Shown piece by piece: positions 10,782 through 24,823 of a stretch of DNA of 64,000 nucleotides (its first letter is position 1; every line of letters begins with the position of its first letter). The notes below the pieces were generated by a model that saw only the letters and a program-made list of their open reading frames with translations, had not been told where the DNA came from and did not search any database. The stretch comes from Candidatus Gastranaerophilales bacterium. Its GTDB lineage: Bacteria > Cyanobacteriota > Vampirovibrionia > Gastranaerophilales > Gastranaerophilaceae. The stretch is from positions 1-64,000 of the forward strand of contig CAJOJE010000007.1 of the NCBI GenBank assembly GCA_905234865.1. Reading direction: 5' to 3'. Both the position numbers and the translations under genes were made by a program.

Positions 10782-11429
10782 TTGTCAAATAATTTTGAAA
10801 ACTTTAATAATTTGGAAGATAACATAAGGAAATCTTCCGTTGTTCAAGAAAGAACAGGGCTTGTTGCAGTTTATATGTACAAGCATTTTCTCGATTTTCA
10901 AAAATCAAACCAAAATACTCAGGATGTTTTTGTTCGCATGATTCAAATTATGAATCAGGTTGTCGACAATTTAAAACAACTTTTTAATATGAGAAATATC
11001 CCCTCGGGGAATGTTTATTGTGAAGTCGATTCAACAAGAACTGTTGCCACAATTAACATTTTATGGCGCACGATAAGTTTTACGTCCCGTTTTAATGTTT
11101 CCCCCAAAGGTTATGAAAGGCAAGGGCAAAATACGATAATTTGCGGAAGAATTTTTGCAATTAACGGAAATTATTCTCATTTAATGCAAGGCATAACGGA
11201 TTATGACGAGCAAATGAAAATTCTTTTAAAAAGAGAAATTGCTTCTTTGTATGTCCCTGCCGAAAAAAATCAAAACGCAATTATGACAATTCGTGATAAA
11301 TATAATGAAGAATCCCTAATTCCAAACGCAGACGCTTCGAGAGATTTTCTTCTTAAAGTAATAGAAATGGTATGTGCCGGCGGCGAACTTCATGAACAAC
11401 AGCCAAAGCCGAAGTTTTTTGAAATGTAA
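10782..11429 (+). CDS. Conserved hypothetical protein, 215 aa
   Basis: The start is TTG at 10782, the first possible start after an in-frame TAG; a purine-rich AGGAAAACGGG lies rather far upstream. The product is soluble with no signal peptide. It has a helical N-terminus (TGLVAVYMYKHFLDF, VRMIQIMNQVVDNLKQLF) and a beta-rich middle (NVYCEVDSTRTVATINILW, GRIFAINGNYSHLM). I do not recognise the family. It lies alone between xer (divergent) and the CRISPR locus, and its 3' end faces the tracrRNA terminator, which may also stop its own transcript. Confidence 0.65.
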   Translation: MSNNFENFNNLEDNIRKSSVVQERTGLVAVYMYKHFLDFQKSNQNTQDVFVRMIQIMNQVVDNLKQLFNMRNIPSGNVYCEVDSTRTVATINILWRTISFTSRFNVSPKGYERQGQNTIICGRIFAINGNYSHLMQGITDYDEQMKILLKREIASLYVPAEKNQNAIMTIRDKYNEESLIPNADASRDFLLKVIEMVCAGGELHEQQPKPKFFEM

Positions 11430-11432
11430 CCT

Positions 11433-11525
11433 TAAAAGATAACCCGTAAATAATTTATCTACGGGTTAGCACTTTTCGAAATGTTTCTTATTATAGTAAC
11501 GTTCCGAAAGAAATTATTGTATAAT
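11433..11525 (-). ncRNA. tracrRNA of the type II-C CRISPR system
   Basis: The anti-repeat occupies 11490-11525. Read on the minus strand it pairs with the crRNA repeat over 36 positions, with 29 Watson-Crick pairs, 3 G-U pairs and 4 mismatches; three of the mismatches cluster in the bulge expected near the lower stem. Downstream on the minus strand follow a small nexus-like hairpin (CATTT-cga-AAAGTG, 11483-11470) and a strong hairpin AACCCGTA/TACGGGTT (11467-11441) ending in ATCTTTT. A perfect promoter just upstream places the start at the first base of the anti-repeat. The length of about 93 nt fits known tracrRNAs. It is transcribed away from cas9. Confidence 0.85.
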
Positions 11526-11531
11526 ACTTAA

Positions 11532-11560
11532 ATTATACGAATTAGTAATTAAACTGTCAA
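11532..11560 (-). promoter_or_regulatory. Consensus sigma-70 promoter for tracrRNA
   Basis: On the minus strand TTGACA (11560-11555) is followed by exactly 17 bases and TATAAT (11537-11532). Both hexamers match consensus perfectly. The start point is predicted near 11525, the edge of the anti-repeat. Confidence 0.88.
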
Positions 11561-11571
11561 TAAAAGGGAAA

Positions 11572-14500
11572 ATGGAAGAAAAAATTCTAGGGCTTGATAT
11601 CGGTATTGCTTCAGTGGGTCATGGACTTATAAGCTATGATGACGAGTTGTTTGAGGGGGAAATTTTAAGTGCGGGTTCAAGAATTTTTGATGCGTGCGAA
11701 GTTGCTAAGACAAAAGAGCCGATAAACGCAAAAAGACGTGAAGCAAGGCTTCAAAGGCGCCGTCTTTCAAGGCGTAAAAACCGTTTAAAGTATATTAAAA
11801 AACTTTTTATTCAAAATGAATTGTTAAATGAAGCCGAAATAAACAATCTTTTTTACGGAAACTCAAACAGAATTGACGTTTGGAATTTAAGAAAAGAGGC
11901 TCTGACAAGAAAATTAAACGTTGAAGAATTTTATAGAATAATTCACCAAATCGCAAAAAGACGAGGGTTTAAATCAATCAGAAAATCCGAAGAAGCTAAA
12001 AACCAAGGCTCTTTATTAAAAGGTTTATCAGATAACAAAGAACTTTTTATAAAAAGCGATTATCAAACCATAGGCGAGATGTTTGCAACGTTATATACGG
12101 GCGATAGCGCAAAAAGAAACAAAAGGGACGAATATAAAAATTCAATTCCAAGAGAACTTTTACAAGAAGAATTAAAAATAATTTTTGAAAAACAAAGAGA
12201 ACTCGGGCTAAAATGTGCAAGCAGAGAATTTGAAGAACAGATTTTAAATGTTGCTTTTTATCAAAGACCGCTCCAATCAATGAAAGATATGATAGGGTAT
12301 TGCGAGTTTGAAAAAGATGAAAAAAGAGCGCCTAAAGCTTCTTATACGGCAGAAATGTTTGTTTGTGCGCAAAAATTGGTGAATGTTCGCTTAATAAATT
12401 ATAAAACGGGCGAAGAAACAAAATTAAACAAAGATGAAATCGGGCAAATTATCGAACTTGCGCACAAAAGAACAAAAGTTACCTATAAACAGGCAAGAAA
12501 AGAACTTTTTTTGGAAGACGATATTAAATTTAAGTCCCTGAATTATAAAAACGATAAAGACCCTGAAAATAATACGTTAATTGAATTTAAAAAATACCAT
12601 GAATTTAAAAAAGCAATAATTGAATCAATGGGCGAAAATTATTTTGAAGAAAATAAGTACAATAAAGAAATGTTTGATAACATTGCAGAAGTTTTAACTT
12701 ATGAAAAAAGCGACGAATTAATTGAAAAAGCCCTGCTTGAAAAAAATATACCCGATGTTGCCGTTCAAAAATTAAAAGAACTGTCGGCAAGTAAGGTTTT
12801 ACACCTTTCAATTAAAGCAATGGAAAAAATCACTCCGTTTTTGTTGGAGGGATATAAATATAATGAAGCGTGTGCTCTTGCGGGGTATGATTTTAAAAAC
12901 GAAGAAAAATCAAAGGGGCTTAATTATCTTCCTCCTTTAACAAAAGACGATTTAACCACAAACCCTGTTGTAAACAGAGCTATTTCTCAAACAAGAAAAG
13001 TAGTAAATGCACTCATTAGAAAATACGGTAAAATTGACAGGATTATTATTGAAACCGCAAGAGATTTGGGAAAATCCGCAGAGGAGAGAAATAAAATAAA
13101 AAAAGGACAGGAAGATTTTCAAAAACAAAAAGAACAGGCAAGAAAAAGATGTATTGAAAATAACGTCAATCCCGATTTAGGCAATAATTTATTAAGGTTT
13201 AGGCTGTGGGAAGAACAAGACGGAAGATGTATCTATTCAAGAAAACGAATTGATATAACAAGGCTATCCGAACCGAATTATACGGATATTGACCATATTA
13301 TTCCTTATTCAAGAAGTTTTGACGACAGTTTAAACAATAAAGTTCTTTGTCTTTCCGATGAAAACAGGCAAAAGGGAAATAAAATTCCTTATGAATATTT
13401 GAATGAAAAAATTAATTGGTTTGAATATTCCGCTTGGGTTGAAAGTTTAAATTTAAGTTCGCCAAAGACGACAAGAATTCTTAAAAAATCCTATATGGCA
13501 AACGAAGAAGGATTTATTTCAAGAAATTTAAACGATACAAGGTATATGTCCGTTTTTATTAAAGATTATTTGAAAAATTTCCTTAACTGTAAAGTTGAAA
13601 CAAGAAACGGTTCCTTGACGGCATTTTTAAGAAATCAATGGGGAATAAAAAAAGTACGAGAAGAAAACGACAAACACCATGCAATTGATGCCATAGTTTT
13701 ATCATGTTCTACTAAAGGAATGGTTAAATATTTATCAACAATTTCAGCCAAAAGAGAAAATTATGATTTTATAAATAATTCAAAACCAAAATTCAAAAGA
13801 CCATGGAAAAATTTTCTTGAAGATATTGAACGCACAAAAGAAAATATTTTTGTATCAAGAGCGGTTGATGAAAAAATAAACGGCTCTATGCACAAAGAAA
13901 CGATAAAAAGCTCAAAACACATAAAAGAAGGGTTTACCGTTTTAAAAAAAGATATAAAAAATATAAAATTAAGTGATTTGGAAAACTTATTTGATAAAGA
14001 AAGAAATTCAGCAATATATTATGCTTTAAAAGAAAGGCTCGAAGAATTTGAAAACGACCCGAAAAAAGCCTTCAGCGAGCCTGTTTATATGCCTTTAGGG
14101 ATAGAAAAAATCAATAACGGGCAAACTCCTCACCAAATAAAAAGTATAAAAATTATGGAAAAAGGAACATCAGGAGTAATTTTAAACAGGGGCTTTGCGG
14201 ATAATGATTCTATGGTGAGAACGGACGTTTTTACGAAAGTAAATAAAAAAGGCAAAAAAGAATATTTCCTTGTTCCCGTTTATGTTGTTGATTTTGCAAG
14301 GGGAATTATTCCAAATCGTGCAATAAAACCGAATAAGCCTTATGAAGAGTGGGTTGAAATTGATGATACGTTTAATTTTGAATTTTCTTTATATAAAAAT
14401 ACGTTGATTTCGATTAATAAAACAGGTAATCCGAGTGATGAAATTTTCGGATACTACAACAGTACACATAGGGGTACGGGGGCAATTAACATAGAAGCGG

Positions 14501-14643
14501 TTGACGGAAATAAAGAATTTAAAGGTGAAGGAATTGGTGTAAAATCATTATTTTCATTTAAAAAATACCAAGTTGATCCTTTGGGAAATTATTTTGAGGT
14601 TAAACATGAGAAAAGATTGGGAATAATCATGAAAAAAAGATAA
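11572..14643 (+). CDS. cas9: Cas9 endonuclease, compact type II-C
   Basis: This 1023-aa RNA-guided nuclease has RuvC-I with D9 (ILGLDIGIASVG), an arginine-rich bridge helix (RREARLQRRRLSRRKNRL), RuvC-II with E494 (IDRIIIETARDLGKS), HNH with D574-H575 (YTDIDHIIPYSRSFDDS, then NNKVL) and RuvC-III with H703 and D706 (HHAIDAIVLS). All catalytic residues are present, so it should be active. The size falls with the compact Cas9 proteins (about 980-1080 aa). The C-terminal ~300 residues are the PAM-interacting part; the PAM cannot be deduced. AAAGGGA precedes the ATG. A TATAAT at 11520-11525 inside the anti-repeat may be its -10. cas1 follows after 5 bases. Confidence 0.97.
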   Translation: MEEKILGLDIGIASVGHGLISYDDELFEGEILSAGSRIFDACEVAKTKEPINAKRREARLQRRRLSRRKNRLKYIKKLFIQNELLNEAEINNLFYGNSNRIDVWNLRKEALTRKLNVEEFYRIIHQIAKRRGFKSIRKSEEAKNQGSLLKGLSDNKELFIKSDYQTIGEMFATLYTGDSAKRNKRDEYKNSIPRELLQEELKIIFEKQRELGLKCASREFEEQILNVAFYQRPLQSMKDMIGYCEFEKDEKRAPKASYTAEMFVCAQKLVNVRLINYKTGEETKLNKDEIGQIIELAHKRTKVTYKQARKELFLEDDIKFKSLNYKNDKDPENNTLIEFKKYHEFKKAIIESMGENYFEENKYNKEMFDNIAEVLTYEKSDELIEKALLEKNIPDVAVQKLKELSASKVLHLSIKAMEKITPFLLEGYKYNEACALAGYDFKNEEKSKGLNYLPPLTKDDLTTNPVVNRAISQTRKVVNALIRKYGKIDRIIIETARDLGKSAEERNKIKKGQEDFQKQKEQARKRCIENNVNPDLGNNLLRFRLWEEQDGRCIYSRKRIDITRLSEPNYTDIDHIIPYSRSFDDSLNNKVLCLSDENRQKGNKIPYEYLNEKINWFEYSAWVESLNLSSPKTTRILKKSYMANEEGFISRNLNDTRYMSVFIKDYLKNFLNCKVETRNGSLTAFLRNQWGIKKVREENDKHHAIDAIVLSCSTKGMVKYLSTISAKRENYDFINNSKPKFKRPWKNFLEDIERTKENIFVSRAVDEKINGSMHKETIKSSKHIKEGFTVLKKDIKNIKLSDLENLFDKERNSAIYYALKERLEEFENDPKKAFSEPVYMPLGIEKINNGQTPHQIKSIKIMEKGTSGVILNRGFADNDSMVRTDVFTKVNKKGKKEYFLVPVYVVDFARGIIPNRAIKPNKPYEEWVEIDDTFNFEFSLYKNTLISINKTGNPSDEIFGYYNSTHRGTGAINIEAVDGNKEFKGEGIGVKSLFSFKKYQVDPLGNYFEVKHEKRLGIIMKKR

Positions 14644-14648
14644 ATTAT

Positions 14649-15536
14649 ATGAGTTATAAAACAATAATTTTTTCTAACCCCGCTAAAATCTCCGTTAAAA
14701 ATTTTCAATTGGTATATGAACCTCTTAACAGCCTTGATAAGGTTAGTATACCAATGGAAGATATCGGCACGATTGTTTTTGAACATCCTCAAATTTCAAT
14801 TTCAACTTATTTTTTATCAATGTGTGCAAAATATAATATCACCGTTTTAACATGTGATAATAAACACCGGCCAAACGGGGTTTTGACCCCTTTTTATCAA
14901 CACAGCAGAAATACTAAAATTGCCCTTGCTCAAATAAATATGAAAGAACCTTTAAAAAAGAAAATTTGGCAAAAAATAATAAAACAAAAAATTCAAAACC
15001 AATCGGATGTAATTAAAATCCTTTTTAATACGGATGAACTCGATTTTTACGTTAAAAAAGTTCAATCGGGGGATATTAAAAATATAGAAGCGCTTGTATC
15101 TAAAAAATATTGGCAAAGGCTCTTTGAAAATTTTAAACGCCATAACGGCTCTAAATATAACGCCGCTCTTGACTATGGGTATGCAATAATAAGAGGCACA
15201 TTGTCGAAATATATAGCTTCAAGCGGGCTTATACCCTGTTTTGGAGTTCATCATTGTAATGAATTAAATTCTTTTAATTTAACCGAAGATTTGATTGAGT
15301 CTTTTCGTCCCTTTATTGATTTAATGGTAAGTTATATGGAAATCAACCCCGATGAAGATTTAACAAAAGAAAATAAAATGTATCTTTTATCGGTTTTATC
15401 GGAACAATGCCAATATAAAAACGAACAAATTACAATTCAAAATGCTTGCGAAAATGTTTGTAAAACCTATGTTAAAGCAATTTTTGAAAACAATATCGAT
15501 AAACTTGAACTTCCCCGATTTATAGATAAAAAATGA
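14649..15536 (+). CDS. cas1: Cas1 integrase, type II
   Basis: This 295-aa protein catalyses spacer integration with Cas2. The N-terminal beta domain (KTIIFSNPAKISVKN, IGTIVFEHPQISIS) precedes the helical catalytic domain with metal ligands E147 (NIEALVSKKYW) and H201/H202 (GVHHCNELNSFNLTEDL), followed by the acidic stretch before FRPFID. It is of normal length for type II Cas1. It overlaps cas2 by 4 bases, indicating translational coupling. Neither csn2 nor cas4 is present, which is what defines II-C. Confidence 0.96.
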   Translation: MSYKTIIFSNPAKISVKNFQLVYEPLNSLDKVSIPMEDIGTIVFEHPQISISTYFLSMCAKYNITVLTCDNKHRPNGVLTPFYQHSRNTKIALAQINMKEPLKKKIWQKIIKQKIQNQSDVIKILFNTDELDFYVKKVQSGDIKNIEALVSKKYWQRLFENFKRHNGSKYNAALDYGYAIIRGTLSKYIASSGLIPCFGVHHCNELNSFNLTEDLIESFRPFIDLMVSYMEINPDEDLTKENKMYLLSVLSEQCQYKNEQITIQNACENVCKTYVKAIFENNIDKLELPRFIDKK

Positions 15537-15865
15537 GCGTAAAAAATAACGATATATTTATGAGATTAATTGTGTTTTTTGATTTGCCTGTTATCAAAAA
15601 AGATGACAGAAGAATTGCTGCAAAATTCAGGAAAGAACTTTTAAACGAAGGGTTTATAATGATTCAATTTTCCGTATATTGCAGAGTATGCAGAGGGTAT
15701 GACATAGTTGAAAGAGAAATAAGGCGCATAAAAAACGTTTTACCCCCAAAAGGAAATATAAGAATTTTATCGGTAACGGAAAAACAATATGGAAATATGT
15801 TGTTTTTAACGGGCGAACCGAAAAATGACGAAATCATTGCCGCAAAACAACTTTTGTTGTTTTAA
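15533..15865 (+). CDS. cas2: Cas2
   Basis: This 110-aa partner of Cas1 in spacer acquisition has a ferredoxin-like fold with the first strand ending in the conserved Asp (MRLIVFFDLP, D17) and the typical FIMIQFSVYCRVC strand. ATG at 15533 overlaps the cas1 stop (ATGA). A start at Met10 is possible and would give the more usual length of ~101. It is the last gene before the array. Confidence 0.95.
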   Translation: MSVKNNDIFMRLIVFFDLPVIKKDDRRIAAKFRKELLNEGFIMIQFSVYCRVCRGYDIVEREIRRIKNVLPPKGNIRILSVTEKQYGNMLFLTGEPKNDEIIAAKQLLLF

Positions 15866-15950
15866 TTTTGCAGGATAAAATATGTTTAATAGGCAATTTG
15901 TCAATTTTTACCGCAATAACCGCATATAATTGTATTTTTGTTGATAAAAA

Positions 15951-15990
15951 ACCAAAACTCTTATGCTTTTATCGGGTTTTGAGTTTTGGT
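15951..15990 (-). terminator. Copy A of the array-terminating hairpin (leader module)
   Basis: ACCAAAACTC (15951-15960) and GAGTTTTGGT (15981-15990) form a perfect 10-bp stem directly abutting the lone repeat at 15991. On the minus strand, the crRNA direction, it is followed by a T run (plus A at 15946-15950), a terminator arrangement. The module is nearly identical to copy B at 16123-16162. Confidence 0.75.
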
Positions 15991-16027
15991 ATTATACAAT
16001 AAATCTACTCGATAAGGAAACTATAAC
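15991..16027 (-). CRISPR. Isolated CRISPR repeat of the 37-nt type
   Basis: This repeat, ending CGATAAGGAAACTATAAC, resembles the older 37-nt repeats at the far end of the array (16888, 16954) rather than the 36-nt repeats next to it. It has no second repeat at spacer distance; 135 bases separate it from the first array repeat. It looks like the former leader-end repeat, abandoned after duplication of the leader/terminator module. Confidence 0.8.
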
Positions 16028-16122
16028 TTGCCTATTGCATATTATTTAAAATATAATGCGGATTTTCTTAAAAATTTAGGTTAAAAACTGATGAAAATAA
16101 TCATTTTTTATGAATACAAAAA

Positions 16123-16162
16123 ACCAAAACTCTTATGCCTTTGTTGGGTTTTGAGTTTTGGT
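16123..16162 (-). terminator. Copy B of the array-terminating hairpin, abutting the active array end
   Basis: The same 10-bp stem as copy A (ACCAAAACTC/GAGTTTTGGT, 40 bases in total) with a slightly different loop. It touches the first repeat at 16163. On the minus strand it is followed by TTTTTTG, so it should end the crRNA precursor. The same sequence is at the cas-proximal end where new spacers are expected to be added. Confidence 0.78.
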
Positions 16163-17124
16163 ATTATACAATAAATTCTTCCGAAAGGAAACTATAACTC
16201 TTCAAATCGTGTCATTTTCCAAAAAGGTATTATACAATAAATTCTTCCGAAAGGAAACTATAACCTGAAGCACGTCAAAGAACTCAACCCGAATATTATA
16301 CAATAAATTCTTCCGAAAGGAAACTATAACCTTCGGCGACGATGAACCCGTTAATAACGCATTATACAATAAATTCTTCCGAAAGGAAACTATAACATAC
16401 ATGCGTTTTCACCTCGAGCCTTTTTTATTATACAATAAATTCTTCCGAAAGGAAACTATAACCCGTTTTTAATGCTTCGAGTTTATCCTCGATTATACAA
16501 TAAATTCTTCCGAAAGGAAACTATAACAGTATGGATAAAAGAACAGGTGCAATAATAATTATACAATAAATTCTTCCGAAAGGAAACTATAACATAGTTC
16601 TAAGGCACTTTTTTTAACTTTAAATTATACAATAAATTCTTCCGAAAGGAAACTATAACTCCTTACTAATTGTTATTACTAAGGAGTATATTATACAATA
16701 AATTCTTCCGAAAGGAAACTATAACAATGAAAGTTATGTTTTGTTATATACTATGATTATACAATAAATTCTTCCGAAAGGAAACTATAACATATTTCAC
16801 CTAATCTATAATTTTGCATTGATTATACAATAAATTCTTCCGAAAGGAAACTATAACAAGTTAGAATTTATCCCGACATTATATTATATTATACAATAAA
16901 TTCATGCGATAAGGAAACTATAACCAACTCACTACTTTTAATGCAGGCTACATATTATACAATAAATTCATGCGATAAGGAAACTATAACTATATAGAGA
17001 ATTAAACGGGTAACGCTCCGATTGTACAATAAATTCATGCGATGCGGAAAATATAACCTTGTTTTCGTAAATACTTCCAAACAAACCATTATGCAATAAA
17101 ATCACATGATAAAGAAACAGTGAT
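16163..17124 (-). CRISPR. CRISPR array: 15 repeats, 14 spacers
   Basis: Repeats start at 16163, 16229, 16295, 16361, 16427, 16492, 16558, 16624, 16690, 16756, 16822, 16888, 16954, 17021 and 17088. The first eleven are identical 36-mers (start ATTATACAATAAATTC, end GGAAACTATAAC). Those at 16888 and 16954 are 37-mers with CATGCGATAAGG in the middle; 17021 and 17088 are increasingly degenerate. Spacers are 30 nt (two are 29). crRNAs read on the minus strand, because the repeat then starts GTTATAG and pairs with the tracrRNA. In that sense every repeat ends in TATAAT, a -10 element. Spacer 16660-16689 contains its own inverted repeat. No spacer matches anything I can see in the window. Confidence 0.98.
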
Positions 17125-17238
17125 ATTTGAGTATTCGCACTTGTCTTTGTTCCGCCGGTTATAAGATAAACTATTTTAAAAATAATCTAAACGTATGTTA
17201 AAAAATTGCATTGTGCAGAATAAAATGGTCAAATAAAT

Positions 17239-17309
17239 AAAAAAGGCAAACGGTGGTTTTATGCCGCTTACCTTGGTCTGTGGTCCATACAGACAAATAA
17301 ATTTGGTAG
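17239..17309 (-). ncRNA. Candidate small RNA or structured 3' UTR
   Basis: On the minus strand TATAAT (17321-17316) would start a ~70-nt transcript. It contains hairpin GTCTGT/ACAGAC (17294-17276), then a strong stem GGTAAGCGG/CCGTTTGCC (17272-17245) followed by six T (17244-17239). The -35 is poor, so it may simply be the structured 3' end of the mRNA from 17368-17709. Nothing else is seen between the array and 17367. Confidence 0.4.
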
Positions 17310-17367
17310 TACTCCATTATATATTAAATAGAGTTATGGTCTTACTTTTTGTTAAAGCCCTTTTGAA

Positions 17368-17709
17368 TTAATCGTCCATATCATCGGGAGCTTTTTTAAA
17401 ATCGGGTTTCATTTTTCCATGGTTGCCTTTGATATCGTCTTTTTTGAAATCTTTCGGCGGATGTTTATGGTGATTTATATGATGACCTTTATGGTGGTAA
17501 AAGTTAATTTGTGCAGGAGGCGGAAAATCTCCCATGTGGCATTTTGGCGGTTTATGCAATAAAACAAACAAACTCATTGCCGCAAAAACGCCGATGAACG
17601 TTCCGAATGTAATGCATAAAAACTGTCTGAAGGGTTCGGAAATACACAAAGTACATTTTTTTTCTTCATTTTTTTCTTGATCTATGATTTCTTGATTTTC
17701 TTCCGACAT
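17368..17709 (-). CDS. Small single-pass membrane protein with His-rich tail
   Basis: This 113-aa protein has a charged cytosolic N-terminus with a CTLC motif, one membrane helix (FLCITFGTFIGVFAAMSLFV) and a C-terminal tail rich in His, Lys and Pro (HHKGHHINHHKHPP). The His pattern suggests metal binding (zinc, nickel or copper), but that is inferred from composition only. AGGAG sits 8 bases before the ATG. It is monocistronic. I do not recognise a family. Confidence 0.65.
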   Translation of the reverse strand: MSEENQEIIDQEKNEEKKCTLCISEPFRQFLCITFGTFIGVFAAMSLFVLLHKPPKCHMGDFPPPAQINFYHHKGHHINHHKHPPKDFKKDDIKGNHGKMKPDFKKAPDDMDD

Positions 17710-23800: not shown

Positions 23801-24823
23801 ATGAAGACCAAAACCCCCCAAAAGAGTGTACATAGTGAAGAAATGTTTGATTTCGGCGAATTTGACGAAAGTCAGATTTCAGCCATTGAAGAAGAAGAAC
23901 AGAGCCTTGAAAATGACCTCGAGGGCGAGTCTGACGAAAATAAAAATTTAAAAGAAGATTACAAAAGCATTCAAACCGACGATTCGGTTAAGGCGTATTT
24001 GCAGCAAATAGGTAAAATTCCGCTTTTATCTTTTGAAGAAGAAATGAAAGTTGCAAAAGAAATTAAAGAAAATAATTCCGTTAAGGCAAAAGAAATTCTT
24101 GTTAATTCAAATTTAAGGCTTGTTGTTTCTATTGCAAAAAAATATATAGGCAGAGGACTTTCTTTTCTTGATTTAATTCAGGAAGGAAATCTGGGGCTTA
24201 TTAAAGCCGCCGAAAAATTTGATTATGCAAAGGGGTATAAATTTTCCACTTATGCAACTTGGTGGATTCAACAATCAATAACAAGAGGAATTGCGGATAA
24301 ATCAAGAATAATAAGACTTCCCGTTCATATGATAGAAACATTGGGTAAAATTAAAAAGGCAACTTTTGACCTTTCGATTGAATTGGGGAGAATGCCTACA
24401 AAAGAGGAAACTGCGGAAAAAGTCGGTATTTCCGTATCAAAACTTACGCAGCTTCTAAAAAGTTCGCAAGGCACAATTTCAATTGAAACTCCCGCAAATC
24501 AAAAGGACGATTCCGCTAAAATTGCAGATTATATCGTTGATGAAACGGATTCTACCCCCGATACAAAAGTTACTCAAGACAGCCTTTTGGGGGATGTTAA
24601 GAGAATTTTGGACCAGTTGAACGAAAAAGAAAAAGACGTATTAATTTTAAGATACGGGCTTGATGATAACGGTCAAAAGAAAACTCTTGATGAAATCGGT
24701 ACAAGATACGGCGTTTCAAGAGAACGCATACGACAAATCGAAACAAGGGCGATTTCAAAACTGAAAAAACTTTGCAGAAATCAAAATTTAAGTTCAAATT
24801 TAAGAAATTATTTGGGAATATGA
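23801..24823 (+). CDS. rpoD: Primary RNA polymerase sigma factor (RpoD/SigA)
   Basis: This 340-aa sigma-70 has region 1.2 ([20 protein letters not shown]), regions 2.1-2.4 ([46 protein letters not shown]), region 3 and region 4.2 ([20 protein letters not shown]). An acidic ~50-residue N-terminus takes the place of region 1.1. The region 2.4 and 4.2 residues are standard, in agreement with the TTGACA/TATAAT promoters seen in this window. AGGAG precedes the ATG and a terminator follows. Confidence 0.95.

Follow-up and report, generated by a model that had tools for sequence, protein, structure and literature searches.

Repeats of a type II-C-like CRISPR array in a Gastranaerophilales genome may double as promoters for individual guide RNAs

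The repeats of a type II-C-like CRISPR locus in a member of the Gastranaerophilales probably serve twice, once in pairing with the tracrRNA and once in supplying each guide with a -10 promoter element of its own. The array lies within the 64,000-nucleotide stretch of contig analysed here (the window), which belongs to a host genome of 1.87 Mb in 22 contigs; features of the locus are collected in Table 1. In the mechanism we propose, the 5' half of each repeat would pair with the tracrRNA, and the (G)TATAAT at its 3' edge would act as a -10 element for the housekeeping sigma factor. Transcription would then begin some 7 nt inside the following spacer and give a crRNA with a guide of about 22-24 nt. 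A cut inside the repeat, where it is paired with the tracrRNA, would form the crRNA 3' end, and RNase III is the probable nuclease. Transcripts begun at upstream repeats would run through later units and stop at the terminator at 16162-16117. This two-role reading draws on sequence, on the pattern of conservation, on the -10 preference of the host and on the tracrRNA and terminator structures; from these we infer where transcription starts, how long the guides are, that RNase III cuts and on which side spacers enter. The prediction of one start site per repeat, with a guide of about 24 nt, is well supported by comparison.

Table 1. Features of the CRISPR locus and associated elements (window coordinates)
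Feature	Position	Strand	Remarks
tracrRNA	11434..11525	minus	about 92 nt, predicted ends
tracrRNA terminator hairpin	11467-11441	minus	
tracrRNA anti-repeat	11525-11491	minus	upstream of cas9, conserved in lineage A
tracrRNA promoter	11532..11560	minus	TTGACA-N17-TATAAT
cas9	11572..14643	+	1023 aa; TIGR01865, 789.6 bits
cas1 (type II)	14649..15536	+	TIGR03639; PADLOC Cas1_II
cas2	15533..15865	+	TIGR01573
Extra old-type solo repeat and second terminator copy	15945..16027	minus	repeat at 15991-16027
Second terminator hairpin copy	15990-15951, then T run	minus	behind solo repeat, between cas2 and array
Intrinsic-terminator hairpin and T run	16117..16162	minus	10-bp stem; begins at first base past last repeat
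CRISPR array	16163..17124	minus (crRNA sense)	15 repeats (36-37 nt), 14 spacers (29-30 nt)
-10-like hexamer TATAAT	16163..16168	minus	3' edge of repeat 16163-16198
TATAAT at low-coordinate edge	repeats starting 16229, 16295, 16361, 16427, 16492, 16558		
TATAAT at low-coordinate edge, continued	repeats starting 16624, 16690, 16756, 16822, 16888, 16954		
Hexamer variants at low-coordinate edge	repeats at 17021 and 17088		TACAAT (17021), CATAAT (17088)
Sigma-70 factor	23801..24823	+	regions 1.2, 2, 3, 4 (Pfam)

The cas9-cas1-cas2 genes of this Gastranaerophilales host form a type II locus with the layout of II-C. Cas9, a type II Cas1, Cas2 and a tracrRNA occur together, as in type II systems, and the gene content is that of II-C (a subtype that the PADLOC models do not separate from others): the three cas genes are consecutive and adjoined by neither csn2 nor cas4, with the neighbourhood judged on ORFs of at least 80 aa and the flanking genes called non-cas by position. 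Among solved structures the closest to this Cas9 are 6jdq (E 2e-199), which we take to be the Neisseria Cas9, and 9ar4/8jtj, again in keeping with II-C. An RNase III gene was found in the genome, and the sigma-70 factor of Table 1 is the likely reader of the repeat -10 element. A 215-aa ORF at 10782-11429, upstream of the tracrRNA and cas9, had no match in NCBIfam, PADLOC or Pfam.

The consensus of the repeat in the crRNA sense (minus strand) is GTTATAGTTTCCTTTCGGAAGAATTTATTGTATAAT, with a -10 element at its 3' edge. This edge is exactly TTGTATAAT in 13 of the 15 repeats (16163-16990), and the two oldest copies end in TTGTACAAT (17021-17057) and TTGCATAAT (17088-17124), so that the statement of the first-pass annotation that every repeat carries a -10 element fits the consensus and not all copies. 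Repeats are identical across 16163-16857, with variant and decayed copies at 16888-17124; the newest end of the array is at 16163 and the oldest at 17124. Decay is thus confined to the crRNA 5' end, with intact repeats at the 3' end, as in II-C arrays with embedded promoters. Judging from this decay, new spacers would be added on the side of the terminator (16163), leaving old and new spacers alike with a promoter of their own. Comparison of the spacers with sequenced phages gave weak matches, with E about 1 or worse among the matches listed, in which the repeat was matched and not the spacer.

On shuffling the AT-rich window repeat, TATAAT recurs at the 3' edge with p ~0.002 and anywhere on the crRNA strand with p ~0.06. 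A single repeat is therefore just mildly surprising, and the weight of the argument is carried by comparison with relatives. A Cas9 match was present in 41 of 288 genomes of the family, and those with arrays fall into three repeat lineages: A, which includes the window and has Cas9 identities of 55-64%; B, with the repeat GTTTTGATT...ATGTTATAAT; and C, with GTTATAGTTGACA...TGATATAAT. The wider sample comprised 82 II-C-like arrays from Gastranaerophilales, Clostridia, Bacilli, Elusimicrobia, Proteobacteria and others, giving 58 distinct repeats, which were oriented independently of the hexamer. A TATAAT edge occurs in 46 of the 58, and TGn in 44. The p of ~0.06 would allow the hexamer to be a chance product of an AT-rich repeat, a notion to which we attach almost no credence: shuffling predicts 0.14 such edges among the 58 against the 46 observed (the repeats are related, and the counts not independent), and the edge is common to lineages A, B and C despite repeats that differ almost throughout. 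The closest relative of the window Cas9 (64% identical; genome G160, L031:7394-11095) stands beside six repeats with TATAAT edges and has kept the terminator; no cas1 or cas2 was seen within its 19.5-kb stretch.

Conservation of the edge might also have been imposed by something other than transcription. The partly inverted ends of the repeat (GTTATA...TATAAT) would suit recognition by Cas1-Cas2 at spacer insertion, the edge then being half of an inverted repeat and no promoter. We regard this as very unlikely and, on the 58 repeats, reject it: a mirrored 5' end would finish in C (TATAAC, TACAAC, CAAAAC), yet TATAAT is present in 46 of them whatever the 5' end, including GTTTTG in lineage B and GTTGTAG in Clostridia, and the edge is kept even in the oldest repeat, which lies beyond the reach of further insertion. 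Still less probable is that the edge is kept as the pairing partner of the anti-repeat's 5' end in the tracrRNA. The predicted duplex does cover nearly the whole window repeat, but the anti-repeat copy of the hexamer is changed in 7 of 9 lineage A loci (to TATATT, TATGAT, TATGGT, TATGCT, TATGTT or TACAAT) while the array repeats keep TATAAT, and this drift led us to reject the pairing explanation. A promoter element thus remains the function we favor for the edge.

The oldest repeats point the same way. In 46 arrays against 1, the 3' 12 nt of the oldest repeat are better kept than its 5' 12 nt, and in 27 strongly decayed oldest repeats the last six bases are 98% kept; what is lost is the tracrRNA-pairing half, and what is kept is the -10 edge. 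We take this as support for promoter retention, not as proof, since wear from the outer side of the array gives a similar gradient. A contrasting scheme, in the style of II-A, has a single promoter to the right of 17124 driving a long pre-crRNA that is cut by tracrRNA, Cas9 and RNase III, the TATAAT edges being unused. In its favor, the genome has an RNase III gene and a tracrRNA that pairs along the full repeat, and the minus strand offers a candidate promoter, TTAACA-N17-TAAAAT, at 17201-17173. Such sites, however, occur at the number expected by chance: a sigma-70 scan of 15860-17500 returned 10 against 10.1 expected. Moreover, 17124 is the old, decayed end, so that a single promoter there leaves retention of the repeat edge unexplained, and the hexamer is kept across distant repeats. 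We consider this scheme improbable, though less so than the alternatives above, and continue with initiation within each repeat.

The same scan did not flag the repeats themselves, because of their poor -35: the window repeat offers TTTCCT (3/6), no better than shuffled sequences. Nor is the element an extended -10, as TTG replaces TGn in all lineage A repeats. On both counts the window repeat resembles a promoter less than most related repeats do; TTG in place of TGn makes it a variant form of the element and gives no ground for leaving II-C. Across 1131 spacers there was no purine preference at the expected start (spacer position 7). On the other hand, the G ahead of the hexamer appears to be a habit of the host. 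In gaps between genes over 1.25 Mb of its genome, split by gap type, GTATAAT occurs 20 times in sense and 4 in antisense between tandem genes (p 0.0008), and 31 times in gaps between divergent genes and 6 times between convergent ones (p 0.0002; 0.72 versus 0.17 per kb), a promoter-side enrichment of 4-5 fold; TGnTATAAT is likewise enriched in host intergenic gaps.

A full or near-full sigma-70 consensus promoter sequence is embedded in the repeats of the rare sister lineage C, whose full-length Cas9 was found in 2 of the 288 genomes. In one of these arrays (G192, L069:5409-7556), 32 of 33 repeats contain TTGACA-N17-TATAAT, and the decayed first repeat still has TTAACA-N17-TATAAT; in the other genome (G164, L040:1298-2322), 14 repeats contain TTGACC-N17-TATGCT. 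It is these sequences that most clearly suggest a second use, as a -35 element, for the tracrRNA-pairing half of a repeat. We offer tentatively, at somewhat less than even confidence, the notion that embedded promoters have been retuned by lineage, to an extended -10 in B, to GTATAAT without TGn in A, and to the full TTGACA-N17-TATAAT in C. In lineage C loci the array separates cas1 from cas9-cas2.

The direction of transcription, which had been assigned from pairing with the tracrRNA, is borne out by a minus-strand tracrRNA and a minus-strand terminator hairpin after the last repeat, which together place crRNA synthesis on the minus strand, ending beside cas2. The duplex of tracrRNA with the crRNA repeat is predicted at -32.8 kcal/mol, versus -8.3 +/- 2.5 for shuffled sequences, and 7 of 8 relatives have an equivalent tracrRNA promoter with exact TTGACA and TATAAT. 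Read in the sense of cas9, the anti-repeat (11491-11525) has TTGTATAAT at its end, some 46 nt upstream of the cas9 start codon, and could thereby provide a -10 for cas9; this cas9-sense hexamer is not conserved among relatives. In every one of 13 lineage A arrays, a hairpin with a T run is found where the last repeat stops, and nearly always it begins at the very first base. Across 11 relatives, 7 of 10 stem pairs have changed on both sides and 96% of cells pair, a level of covariation reached by no shuffle.

The extra repeat beside cas2 (15991-16027) was considered as a tracrRNA and rejected, since the conserved anti-repeat sits upstream of cas9. Either a remnant of an earlier end of the array or a guide RNA gene standing on its own could account for it. 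Its flank has no other match of at least 11 nt within 1.25 Mb of the genome, and no solo repeat with second terminator was seen between cas2 and the array in two other loci (L033 and L034).

Embedded promoters are an already known habit of II-C systems, and what is new here is the host lineage. The repeat of Neisseria meningitidis carries an extended -10 with TGn. Its II-C locus resembles that of the window in its cas9-cas1-cas2 genes, a 36-nt repeat, a -10 at the 3' edge and spacers of about 30 nt; it differs in host and in its TGn extended -10, where the window has TTGTATAAT and predicted starts. Initiation within each N. meningitidis repeat is described as established by experiment in one account, which refers to the original work (PMC7038990). 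The first-pass annotation named Neisseria as a II-C precedent and understated the range, which also takes in Campylobacter, Clostridium cellulolyticum and, as a general feature, II-C itself. In the minimal type II system of Campylobacter jejuni, crRNA starts mapped by dRNA-seq, where ours are predicted, revealed the embedded-promoter design; as proposed for the window, a -10 box for each crRNA lies in the 3' part of the upstream repeat, with tracrRNA and RNase III forming the crRNA 3' end (PMC3656092). For the II-C system of C. cellulolyticum, repeat promoters have been proposed and crRNAs contain 23-26 nt of spacer; the last nine bases of the repeat approximate an extended -10, the TGn of which is lost in lineage A, and, as in the window, array and cas genes are transcribed in opposite directions (PMC7038990). 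Repeat promoters have been treated as a general II-C feature, and the window shares with that architecture the newest spacers at the crRNA 3' end and a mutated first repeat (Feussner et al. 2025, PMC12080349). The mutations of the first repeat are there found mostly within its first 15 nt; unlike those authors, we read its unmutated 3' edge as promoter retention. They also treat terminators upstream of arrays and extra-crRNA loss, where the window has a covarying terminator abutting the last repeat (PMC12080349).

Two further claims of the earlier annotation require rewording. That crRNAs are made without processing of a long precursor would stand for the 5' end, set by initiation, and is overstated for the 3' end, which would still be cut within the repeat, given a tracrRNA pairing along the repeat and an RNase III gene; the claim should read that there is no 5' processing of a long precursor. 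Its suggestion of convergent design finds no support, as repeats with a -10 edge extend over most of the sampled Cas9 tree (a FastTree tree whose branches are long and whose root is weak), on which lineages A, B and C form one clade each. Inheritance is the simpler reading of this distribution, and the repeat-embedded promoter was probably inherited rather than acquired convergently.

These findings would extend the embedded-promoter design to the Cas9 systems of Gastranaerophilales, and favor its inheritance over the sampled II-C-like Cas9 tree above repeated invention. Lineage C provides a natural test of the strength that repeat promoters can reach, and of the way in which promoter and tracrRNA-pairing signals are combined in a single 36-nt repeat. 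If the retuning by lineage is true, CRISPR repeats evolve in their promoter grammar with the host and with the demand for guide RNA.
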